The notes under the pieces: model-generated
Seen by the model: the letters and a program-made list of their open reading frames with translations, nothing else
The model's database searches: none
What the model was told of the DNA's origin: nothing
Shown here: one piece after another, positions 3,171 through 53,304 of the stretch
Layout of the letters: every line of letters starts with the position of its first letter
How positions within the stretch are numbered: the first letter of the stretch is position 1
Made by a program: the position numbers and the translations under genes
DNA from: Verrucomicrobiota bacterium
GTDB lineage: Bacteria > Verrucomicrobiota > Verrucomicrobiia > Chthoniobacterales > UBA10450
Direction: 5' to 3'
NCBI GenBank assembly: GCA_003219695.1
Contig: QHQA01000057.1
Span: 1 to 64,000 of the forward strand
DNA: 64,000 nucleotides

Positions 3171-3253
3171 GTCATCCTGAGCGGCGTCGAAGGATCCCGC
3201 GAAGGTACCTTTAAGCTTACGATCCGAGATTCCTCGACTTCGCTCGGAATGAC
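3171..3253. repeat. Intergenic inverted repeat GTCATYCYGAGCG-type
   Basis: gtcatcctgagcggcgtcgaaggatc ... gattcctcgacttcgctcggaatgac are near-perfect inverted arms. Confidence 0.8.
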
Positions 3254-17149: not shown

Positions 17150-17602
17150 ATGGCCAATACCTACACATCCCTTCATTATCATCTCATCTTTTCAACAAAG
17201 AACCGGCAGCCTTGGATTGCGGCCGAAACTGAAGAACGCATTTGGGCATATATCGGAGGAATAGCGCGTGCCCATAAGATGACCGTTCTGCAAGTAGGCG
17301 GCGTGACAGATCACATCCACGTGCTTGTAACGGCACCGGCGACGATCGCCCCGGCACAGATAGCTCAATATCTCAAGGGCGATTCTTCGAAATGGATTCA
17401 CGAGGAGTTTCGAAACATGCAAGGCTTTGGTTGGCGGGATGGATATAGCGCTTTCACGGTAAGCAAATCAAGCCTTCCTGAAGTGGTGCGTTATATTCAG
17501 AACCAGCGCGAGCATCATCACACAAAGACATTTCAAGAAGAGTATCTGGAGTTCTTGGGTAAGCACGGGATCGAATACGATGAACGGTATCTCTGGGGTT
17601 GA
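17150..17602 (+). mobile_element. IS200/RAYT-like Y1 (HUH) tyrosine transposase
   Basis: YTSLHYHLIFSTKNRQPWI, DHIHVLV (HUH), VVRYIQNQREHHHTKTFQEEYLEFLGKHGIEYDERYLWG (catalytic Tyr region). Confidence 0.9.
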
Positions 17603-17607
17603 TTCAG

Positions 17608-17625
17608 CCGTCGCTGACGCGACGG
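17608..17625. repeat. Hairpin immediately downstream of transposase
   Basis: CCGTCGC TGAC GCGACGG, 7-bp stem. Confidence 0.65.
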
Positions 17626-17645
17626 ATGGAGCCGTTAGGAGCTTT

Positions 17646-17669
17646 CCCGGCCTTGAAAGGCCGGGCTAC
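17646..17669 (-). repeat. GTAG-hairpin REP-like module beside transposase
   Basis: CCCGGCCT TGAA AGGCCGGG directly followed by CTAC (GTAG on minus strand). Confidence 0.75.
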
Positions 17670-17728
17670 AATCGGAGTGTCGCTACGCGACCAATGGTCG
17701 CCTTTGGCGCTAACCATACACGCTAAAT

Positions 17729-49782: not shown

Positions 49783-50460
49783 CTATTCGTAGCGCAAGGC
49801 TTCGATGGGATCGAGGGCGGCGGCTGTGCGCGCGGGGTAAAAGCCGAAGAAAACGCCGACTGCTGCGCTGAACAAAAATGCGATGGCGATTGAGCTGATC
49901 GATATCAGCGTGGGCCAATGCGCGTAGATCGAGAGAACGCGGGATGCGGCGATGCCGCAGACGATTCCAATCACGCCGCCGACGGAGCTCAATGTTACGG
50001 CTTCAATTAAGAATTGAGTGAGAATGTCGTTGCCGCGCGCGCCGACGGCCATGCGCACACCGATCTCGCGTGTCCGCTCGGTCACGCTCACCAGCATGAT
50101 GTTCATGATGCCGATTCCGCCGACCAGCAGCGATACGCCCGCGATTGCGCCGAGCAGGACTGTCATTACGCGCGAGGTCGCTGTGGCCGTTTCGGCGATC
50201 TCCTGTTGCGTGCGCACGGTGAAATCATCATCGTGCCCCGGCCGGATGTTGTGCCGTTGTCGTAGCAACGAGATGATTTGTTGCTGGGCGGCTTCGACTT
50301 GACGGTTATCGGCGATTTGCACATTGATGTTGCGCAAAGTGGTGCCGCCGATGACGCGTTTCATCGCGCTGGTGTACGGCATCACGACGATGTCGTCCTG
50401 ATCGACGCCTTGCGGGCTCAATCCCTTTGGCGTGAGCACACCGGTAATCGTGAACGGCAC
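49783..50460 (-). CDS. MacB-like ABC permease, C-terminal part (frameshifted)
   Basis: PFTITGVLTPKG, GGIGIMNIMLVSVTERTREIGVRMAVGAR. Confidence 0.85.
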   Translation of the reverse strand: MPFTITGVLTPKGLSPQGVDQDDIVVMPYTSAMKRVIGGTTLRNINVQIADNRQVEAAQQQIISLLRQRHNIRPGHDDDFTVRTQQEIAETATATSRVMTVLLGAIAGVSLLVGGIGIMNIMLVSVTERTREIGVRMAVGARGNDILTQFLIEAVTLSSVGGVIGIVCGIAASRVLSIYAHWPTLISISSIAIAFLFSAAVGVFFGFYPARTAAALDPIEALRYE

Positions 50461-51001
50461 ATTTTTTGATCCGCAAAATTTGGCCTATAGGGTTTTCGTT
50501 GCCATAAATCTCCGTAGCGGTTGTGCGGCCAATCACGCAAACCTTGTTTGCGCTGCGCACATCCTGTGGCGTAAAGGGTGCGCCGTCGGCGAGCGGCCAC
50601 TGGCGAATATCGAAATAATCCGCTGATTCGCCGAAGATTCTCGTGAACCAGTTTTGATTTCCGGCTGCCACTTGCGTGGTCGAGACAACTTCTTCGCTCA
50701 CGCCGATGACGCCGGGCACTTCGCGTCGGATCGCTTCGGCGTCTTCAATTTTCAACGTGCCTGCGCCGCCCCAGCCGGTGCGGATGCCACTCGACGTGGT
50801 GCTTCCGGAAAAGATCAGGATCACGTTTTGTCCAAGGCTGGCGATTTGCGCTTCCACCTGCGCCTTGGCGCCGTTGCCGATCCCGGCCATCGCAATGACT
50901 GCCCCGACGCCGATGATGATTCCCAGCGCAGTGAGCACGGAACGCATTTTGTTGCGGCGCAGCGCGCGGTAGGCAACGTGAAATGTGGGCGCGATTCGCA
51001 T
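50306..51001 (-). CDS. MacB-like ABC permease, N-terminal part (frameshifted)
   Basis: AYRALRRNKMRSVLTALGIIIGVGAVIAMAGIGNGAKAQVEAQIASLGQNVILI; frame lost at T6 run 50462-50467. Confidence 0.85.
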   Translation of the reverse strand: MRIAPTFHVAYRALRRNKMRSVLTALGIIIGVGAVIAMAGIGNGAKAQVEAQIASLGQNVILIFSGSTTSSGIRTGWGGAGTLKIEDAEAIRREVPGVIGVSEEVVSTTQVAAGNQNWFTRIFGESADYFDIRQWPLADGAPFTPQDVRSANKVCVIGRTTATEIYGNENPIGQILRIKKCAVHDYRCAHAKGIEPARRRSGRHRRDAVHQRDETRHRRHHFAQHQCANRR

Positions 51002-51228: not shown

Positions 51229-51972
51229 TTACTCGTTTGCTCTGCGCTTAATTTGGTCCGTCGCGTCTAGTCGTCGCGCCACAACGTGATCGTGCGTGAT
51301 CAGCCCGTCGCGCATGATGACGTTGCGCTGCGCGTAGGCAGCGATGTCCTGCTCGTGAGTGACCATGACGATCGTGATTCCGCGCTCGTTGAGCTGCTGA
51401 AAAATCGCCATAATCTCGACGCTGGTGCGGCTGTCGAGATTTCCGGTTGGTTCATCGGCGAGCAACATCTCGGGATCGTTGATCAAGGCGCGGGCAATTG
51501 CGACGCGCTGTTGCTGACCACCGGAAAGCTGGCTCGGATGATGATCTTCGCGGCCGCCGAGCCCGACTGAGGACAGGACGCGATCGGCTTTTTCGCGAAG
51601 CTGCGCATGCGACAAGCGCTGCGCACTGTAAATCAGCGGCAACTCGGCATTCTCGCGCGCGGACGTGCGCGGTAGCAGATTAAAATTTTGGAACACGAAA
51701 CCGATTTTGCGATTGCGAATATCGGCGAGCTGATCGCGGTTTAGTCCGGAAACGTCTGCGTCGTCGAGAAAGTACTGCCCAGAACTTGGCCGGTCGAGGC
51801 AGCCCAGCATGTTCATCAGTGTTGATTTGCCCGAGCCGCTGGCACCCATGAGCGCGACGAATTCGCCGCGTTTGATTTCAAGCGACACGCCGCGCACGGC
51901 GGGCACTTCCATCTCGCCGGTGCGATAAACTTTGTGGACCTCCAGCAACCTAACGAGTGCACCGTCTGTCAT
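51229..51972 (-). CDS. ABC transporter ATP-binding protein, MacB/LolD type
   Basis: VALMGASGSGKSTLMNMLGCLDRPSSGQY, LSGGQQQRVAIARALINDPEMLLADEPTGNLDS. Confidence 0.94.
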   Translation of the reverse strand: MTDGALVRLLEVHKVYRTGEMEVPAVRGVSLEIKRGEFVALMGASGSGKSTLMNMLGCLDRPSSGQYFLDDADVSGLNRDQLADIRNRKIGFVFQNFNLLPRTSARENAELPLIYSAQRLSHAQLREKADRVLSSVGLGGREDHHPSQLSGGQQQRVAIARALINDPEMLLADEPTGNLDSRTSVEIMAIFQQLNERGITIVMVTHEQDIAAYAQRNVIMRDGLITHDHVVARRLDATDQIKRRANE

Positions 51973-51998
51973 ATGGCTTGAAGTTCGCTGGCAGATGT

Positions 51999-52075
51999 TG
52001 TAGCCGCGTCTCTGTGAGACGCGCGGGACGTGCGTGTGAAGCCAACGTTGCGCTTCGCACAGCGAAGCGGCTACA
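51999..52075. repeat. Inverted pair of GTAG-hairpin modules (BIME-like)
   Basis: GTAGC CGCGTCTC TGT GAGACGCG ... CGCTTCGC ACA GCGAAGCG GCTAC. Confidence 0.8.
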
Positions 52076-52116
52076 GTAGCCCGCGAGTAAAATGGCGAGT
52101 TCTCGTTTCCTCGCCA

Positions 52117-53304
52117 TCATGGGAACCTCCGCGGGCCGCCGAAGGGATTTGCAGGAGTCGATGTTCTGGCGGCTGCAGAAGTTAATTCTGCGGTCACAAC
52201 GCGATCGCCTTCCTTCAATCCTTCAACAACTTCGGTCACGACGCCGTCGCTGATTCCTGTTTTGATTTGCACTGGCTTCGGTTGGTTGCCGGACAAAACA
52301 TAGACGGTACGCTCGCTCGTTCGTCGCTGGCGCGCACCGACGCCACGCGCGCCTGCGGGCGCGGGCGATCTGGATCCCATTTCGGGGGGCGCCGCTTCCG
52401 CCGGGCGATAACGCAGCGCGGCGTTCTTGATCTGGAGCACGTTGTCCTTATGTGCGACGATGATTGAAACGTTCGCGGTCATTCCCGGTTTCAATTTCAA
52501 ATCCGGATTGCTTACGCCGATGACCGTGTCGTAAGTCACCACGTTCTGCACTGTGATGGGCGCGTTGCGCACTTGCACAACTTTGCCGTGGAATGTGCGC
52601 ATCGGGAACGCGTCCACGGTGAAATCGACATCCTGTCCCACTTGCACGACGCCGACATCCGCCTCAGCGACATTCGAGTCGATCTGCATTTTGGTGAGAT
52701 CATTTGCGATTTGGAAAATGACCGGCGCCTGCAGACTGGCGGCGACGGTCTGGCCGACATCGACACTGCGCGAGATCACGACGCCATCGATCGGCGACGT
52801 GATGGTGCAATGCTCGAGGTCCGCCTTTGCCTTATCGAGCGCGCCTTGTTTGATTTTCACGTTGGCTTCGGCTTGATGAAGATTGGCCATCGCCTGATCG
52901 AGATCGGCTTGAGAAGATGTTTTCCGAGCGAAGAGGTCCTGTGTGCGTTTTGCGTTCACCCTTGCGAGCTCGAGCGCAGCTTGCGCGTTGGCCAGGTCGC
53001 CCTCGGCCTGGGTGACAGTGGCTTGAAAAAGCGCCGGATCAATCTGCGCTACTACCTGGCCGGCTTTGACCTGCGAATTAAAATCCACGAACAACTTCGC
53101 GATGTTCCCCGAGACCTGGCTGCCAACCTGCACGTTGACCACCGGATTGAGCGTGCCCGCCGCGGTAACCGCCTGAGTGACTGGACCACGCGTAACGGTT
53201 GCAGTCTGATAATTTGCAGCGCCACTGTTGCGGCACTGCCGGACAACAAGCAGGACAATTACCAGCCCGACAATAACGACGAGCCAGGGGAACAAACGTT
53301 TCAT
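52117..53304 (-). CDS. Periplasmic adaptor (MacA-like) of efflux system
   Basis: AAGTLNPVVNVQVGSQVSGNIAKLFVDFNSQVKAGQVVAQIDPALF, TITSPIDGVVISRSVDVGQTVAASLQ. Confidence 0.92.
   Translation of the reverse strand: MKRLFPWLVVIVGLVIVLLVVRQCRNSGAANYQTATVTRGPVTQAVTAAGTLNPVVNVQVGSQVSGNIAKLFVDFNSQVKAGQVVAQIDPALFQATVTQAEGDLANAQAALELARVNAKRTQDLFARKTSSQADLDQAMANLHQAEANVKIKQGALDKAKADLEHCTITSPIDGVVISRSVDVGQTVAASLQAPVIFQIANDLTKMQIDSNVAEADVGVVQVGQDVDFTVDAFPMRTFHGKVVQVRNAPITVQNVVTYDTVIGVSNPDLKLKPGMTANVSIIVAHKDNVLQIKNAALRYRPAEAAPPEMGSRSPAPAGARGVGARQRRTSERTVYVLSGNQPKPVQIKTGISDGVVTEVVEGLKEGDRVVTAELTSAAARTSTPANPFGGPRRFP

Follow-up and report, generated by a model that had tools for sequence, protein, structure and literature searches.

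The macA/macB junction lies within the window, the 64-kb stretch of DNA that was analysed as a whole, and contains a pair of inverted hairpins between the macA-like gene and the macB-like ABC ATPase gene (Table 1). The two genes are co-directional and separated by a gap of 144 nt, giving the transcription order macA, repeat, ATPase. Each hairpin is composed of a GTAG tag, a single C, an 8-bp stem and a TGT loop, and the two hairpins face inward with the GTAG tags at the outer ends. The outer arms of the doublet, 26 nt each, are 85% complementary to each other and enclose 25 nt. The dinucleotide on the 5′ side of GTAG is TT in the left REP and, read on the minus strand, CT in the right REP. A preliminary description of this DNA had already recognized the paired hairpins with their GTAG-C tips, 8-bp stems and TGT loops, with coordinates that prove correct to the base, and its placement of the doublet between macA-like and ATPase genes agrees with the domain matches to HlyD_D23 and ABC_tran. 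The permease gene that follows the ATPase gene is represented by two overlapping frames, which look frameshifted by sequencing error or real mutation; translation across them contains stops. The window also harbors an IS200-type transposase gene, followed by a palindrome, and a second dispersed repeat.

Table 1. Features of the macA/macB junction and other elements of the window
Feature	Position	Strand	Remarks
Whole REP doublet, head-to-head heterodimer (BIME/REPIN)	51999–52075		TGTAGCC ... GGCTACA; ends set by the mirrored outer T/A
Left REP, GTAG-C-CGCGTCTC-TGT-GAGACGCG	52000–52023	+	GTCTC core, class B; core in 8/64 genome REPs
Doublet spacer, 27 nt	52024–52050		Between left REP and right REP
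Right REP, GTAG-C-CGCTTCGC-TGT-GCGAAGCG	52051–52074	-	TTCGC core, class A, commonest; core in 17/64 genome REPs
macA-like periplasmic membrane-fusion gene, 395 aa	52117–53304	-	HlyD_D23, E 9e-23; upstream of doublet
macB-like ABC ATPase gene, 247 aa	51229–51972	-	ABC_tran, E 3e-36; downstream of doublet
Permease gene after the ATPase gene	49783–51001	-	Overlapping frames 50306–51001 and 49783–50460
IS200-type transposase gene	17150–17671		Y1_Tnp, E 6e-30
Palindrome GTAGCCCGGCCTTTCAAGGCCGGGCTAC	about 17645–17671		Follows the IS200-type transposase gene
Second dispersed repeat, CATTCCGAGCGAAGTCGAGGAAT	3229–3251	-	

The preliminary description read the locus as BIME-like and named two checks, further matches in the genome and covariation in a wider alignment. 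Within the 64-kb window alone the signal is weak, the pattern at two or fewer mismatches occurring three times against 0.8 expected. In the 3.1-Mb genome, the exact pattern is present in 35 copies and its reversed control in none, while an arm-blind pattern (GTAGCC-N6-CTGTG, with tag and loop fixed and the arms free) gives 65 matches compared with one for the reversed control. A few of these 65 matches represent a sister type (GTAGCCAC...). The genome counts against the reversed patterns reject a chance origin. An Rfam search of the window assigned no family to the doublet and had as its one hit a tRNA at another position of the window.

Covariation was assessed on 54 distinct copies gathered with the arm-blind pattern. 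The stem cells of these copies are paired in 91.4% of cases, compared with 71.4% after shuffling and 31–54% when the partner is slid; relatedness among copies inflates the shuffle tests, but the slid controls retain this relatedness and yet fail. In addition, double-sided changes affect 88 stem cells, against 29.5 expected, and a separate whole-arm shuffle, subject to the same inflation, gives 6.09 of 7 pairs versus 4.48 ± 0.11. Since pairing exceeds both the shuffled and the slid controls, the stems are maintained while their sequence changes. Both checks therefore came out in favor of the BIME-like reading, which is further borne out by the inverted pairing of the copies.

The genome of the window contains 64 REPs, arranged as 24 pairs within 100 nt and 16 singles. 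All 24 close pairs are head to head, the GTAG tags outermost, and the starts of the two REPs are mostly 48–57 nt apart, five pairs having a spacing of 26–28 nt. A REP pair of the opposite orientation occurs in genome G034. The gene context of the copies in the window's own genome was drawn from the fetched loci: 30 of 44 testable copies lie outside genes predicted with a crude gene model, versus about 9% of random positions. The repeat thus has the defining features of a REP, namely a GTAG tag beside a repeated short palindrome, a compensated stem and a mainly extragenic location, and its usual unit is an inverted REP doublet with a short spacer, as in a BIME or REPIN. Locus L300 on contig C89 of the same genome holds, at 2022–2102, a sister-type doublet (GTACCCACGGCCCTGTGGGCCGTC ...) within a gene judged by eye to be protein-kinase-like, where the doublet is possibly read through in frame. 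On the same contig, inverted sister REPs 585 nt apart, one of them belonging to a doublet in a protein-kinase-like gene, were considered as a RAYT cassette and rejected, with no RAYT between them.

The family is specific to one genus. The exact pattern is present in all 34 other genus members searched, with 1 to 37 copies in each of these incomplete assemblies, and is missing from all 23 genomes searched outside the genus, including two of the same family. Among named records, the commonest copy is found in soil Verrucomicrobia labelled Candidatus Udaeobacter, Spartobacteria or Chthoniobacterales, and some named soil Verrucomicrobia records hold 79 to 127 REP copies.

In sister genomes, full-length RAYT genes are directly flanked by matching REPs at three loci, L221 (= L115), L255 and L334. 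The encoded proteins possess a Y1_Tnp domain and a HUH-type histidine motif, for example PDHVHFF, which takes the variant form DRLH in L334. In a tree of 25 RAYT proteins the three are grouped with a support of 90/89. The neighbouring clade L264/L266 is adjoined by hairpins of the type GTAGCCAC..TGT, and the neighbouring clade L261/L265/L335 by GTAG[AC]CG.. hairpins with TCT or TCC loops. The REPs of sister RAYT clades are themselves of sister types, and no other observation speaks as strongly for the mechanism as this agreement.

Several RAYTs are present in the window's own genome (93% complete assembly), none of them from the L221/L255/L334 clade. Their identity does not exceed 47%, and the REPs beside them are of other types; the best of them, at 47% identity, contains a stop codon and has GTAGCCGGGATC repeats beside it. 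The cognate RAYT is likely absent from this genome, and the macA/macB doublet is probably immobile there at present, since no cognate RAYT was detected. The high-copy genome G032 shows no cognate RAYT either. A RAYT on contig C58 of the window's genome (L333) looked promising as the cognate, with a GTAGCCGC REP upstream, and was rejected because its other neighbouring hairpins differ (GTAGGGC..) and its identity groups it with L337/L338.

RAYT/Y1_Tnp domains also occur in frame, with no stops, inside the housekeeping genes recG, metH and carB, and in relatives inside sua5, alaS and an mgsA/rarA-like gene. Host-gene domains are found on both sides in most cases. Such loci include L040, L037 and L038 in the window's own genome (contigs C8, C84 and C82) as well as L223, L224, L341, L344, L345, L346 and L347. 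The arrangement looks like an intein-like lodging of the transposase domain, and a literature search turned up no description of in-frame RAYT domains in housekeeping genes.

The stem cores of the macA/macB doublet, GTCTC and TTCGC, differ by compensated changes, as the preliminary description had pointed out, and unequal cores turn out to be the rule of the family. Among 61 doublets, assigned by hand as pairs from listed coordinates in the whole-genome lists of eight genomes, three have equal cores, compared with 12.9 ± 2.7 expected from within-genome shuffling of the cores. An earlier count of 5 in 139 is biased, as its loci were fetched with the TTCGC core. In ensemble calculations with DNA energies, 44 natural heterodimers form both short hairpins with a mean probability of 0.71; equal-core versions of the same 44 elements have essentially no two-hairpin form, and their long hairpin reaches 0.99. 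The macA/macB doublet itself folds strongly (DNA z -4.4; RNA z -4.5, -57.3 kcal/mol), and in its ensemble a long hairpin competes with the two short ones. The short hairpins have a probability of 0.07 and the long pairing 0.69 on the plus strand, compared with 0.56 and 0.37 on the minus strand. As the long hairpin is favored on the plus strand, this copy makes a weaker case for the two-hairpin form than the family does.

According to a proposal by Bertels and Rainey, RAYTs recognize the clover form and not the long hairpin (PMC3116915). Tentatively, and at well under even odds, the unequal cores may represent a selected design, in which the two halves stay perfect short hairpins and must not pair perfectly together. 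The doublet would then be poised between a two-hairpin form usable by the transposase and an unusable long hairpin, and this poise would set its mobility and survival. A partly technical origin of the shortage, through the loss of perfect long palindromes in short-read assembly or library preparation, appears unlikely: most of the genomes are fragmented drafts, and equal cores would give a 24-bp perfect inverted repeat, but some equal-core doublets do assemble, three of them in genome G061, and families made up of heterodimers only have been reported from other species (PMC3733652). Alternatively, equal cores may be rare because perfect palindromes are lost in cells.

Comparison of relatives reveals a patchy distribution at the macA/macB junction. 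The doublet is located at the same place in 9 of the 27 readable orthologous junctions, as well as on one partial contig, and the junction of the nearest relative is without it. Both deep clades of the genus tree include carriers, corresponding to at least seven changes of state, and the carriers have flanking bases in common, for example CTACAACATTYG. As the same site and related flanks recur in both deep clades, the copy is old; an old insertion that was lost or overwritten several times is the simplest reading of the junction pattern, the alternative being repeated insertion at this one spot. Neither a clean pre-insertion site nor an excision product came to light. In the relatives L240 and L254, the spacer matches those of other carriers only as the reverse complement (scores up to 16–19, versus 4–8 in the same-strand comparison), whereas the direction of the outer flanks is preserved. 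The doublet has therefore flipped in place in these two relatives, which suggests recombination between its two inverted arms. Junctions of non-carriers often hold other repeats, particularly a CATTCCGAGCGAAGTCGAGGAAT-like repeat (L226, L228–L232). The macA/macB setting given in the preliminary description stands, and the patchy distribution, the inversion in two relatives, the RAYT link, the genus-wide spread and the general inequality of cores within a pair were unseen in it.

These observations bear on whether the doublet is an RNA element specific to this locus, that is, an intercistronic hairpin selected to stabilize the upstream macA mRNA or to tune macA/macB output. REP sequences in other operons are reported to have effects of both kinds. 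The location between two co-directional genes and the strong RNA fold are in line with such a role, as are the REP arms, which are 92–94% identical in the seven carrier junctions compared, versus about 65% for the flanks. The higher identity of the arms is explicable by selection or by conversion with other copies. The doublet is present in only the minority of readable junctions given above and is missing from the nearest relative, and the family has dozens of copies elsewhere, at unrelated sites. We therefore consider a locus-specific RNA element improbable. A secondary effect on macAB mRNA is possible, and the patchy distribution gives it no support.

A miniature element of a cut-and-paste transposon with terminal inverted repeats would also be a short inverted-repeat element of fairly constant size. 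In the present family, however, both ends form perfect GTAG-tagged hairpins of their own, and no transposase genes other than RAYTs turned up beside the repeats, making this origin very doubtful. The GC-rich stems, very stable on either strand, would suit an intrinsic terminator or attenuator at the macA/macB junction, but such a function is hardly credible, given that neither stem is followed by a U-run, a terminator scan of 51900–52200 finds none, and a mirrored pair within a genus-wide repeat family is not a terminator feature.

We conclude, with a probability of roughly 0.87, that the macA/macB element is one copy of a genus-specific, RAYT-linked family of GTAG-type REPs, arranged as a head-to-head heterodimer (BIME/REPIN). 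By analogy with other RAYTs (PMC8266576, PMC3116915), the elements would spread as single-stranded DNA; the RAYT would bind each short hairpin together with its GTAG tag, cut at the CT beside GTAG and move the doublet in trans. REP transposases characterized so far cleave at C|T (PMC8266576). For the cut, support at the sequence level comes from a T directly 5′ of GTAG in 45/45 copies and a CT dinucleotide in 34/45. The unequal cores may let each half remain a perfect hairpin and prevent the two from joining in a single long hairpin; such a structure would conceal both binding sites or create an unstable long palindrome. In this scheme, macAB mRNA would be influenced only secondarily, if at all.

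The REP doublet belongs to a known class of element, the RAYT-linked REP/REPIN kind, whereas the family itself is new. A close likeness is to REPtron Sm of Stenotrophomonas maltophilia (TnpA_REP group 3, PMC8266576), which has a GTAG tag, an 8-bp perfect stem, a 3-nt loop, a HUH/tyrosine RAYT nearby and CT beside the REP. The present family differs from it by the extra C between GTAG and the stem, the TGT loop, other stem sequences and a Verrucomicrobia host, and it is described here from sequence. The REPINs of Pseudomonas fluorescens SBW25 (PMC3116915) likewise have an inverted REP doublet as the unit, a spacer less conserved than the REPs, an extragenic location and a RAYT gene matching each REP group. 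The SBW25 doublets, however, pair REPs of one group, whereas the two stems of the doublets described here almost always differ, weakening the long hairpin.

Heterodimers as such are already known in other species (PMC3733652). Head-to-head dimers of unlike elements are formed by GTAG-3 of enterobacteria, with different loops, and by GTAG-24 of P. aeruginosa, with different stems (PMC3733652); both belong to other sequence families, and in the family described here the stem core varies while the loop is constant. The GTAG repeats of Opitutus terrae (PMC3733652), from the same phylum, also form dimers and have some intragenic copies, but they are distinct families with dimer spacers of 1–2 bp, and the exact GTAGCCGC-TGT form is confined to the window's genus among the genomes searched.

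The most useful additions of this work are the genus-wide matching of RAYTs with REPs and the measured rule against equal cores. With this analysis, soil Verrucomicrobia, Candidatus Udaeobacter among them, gain a defined REP/REPIN family and RAYT lineage. The genus has several related RAYT clades that each adjoin a hairpin type of their own, a natural series for RAYT hairpin recognition; the extent to which equal stems are avoided, now quantified, yields a clear and testable statement on the fold needed by the transposase.
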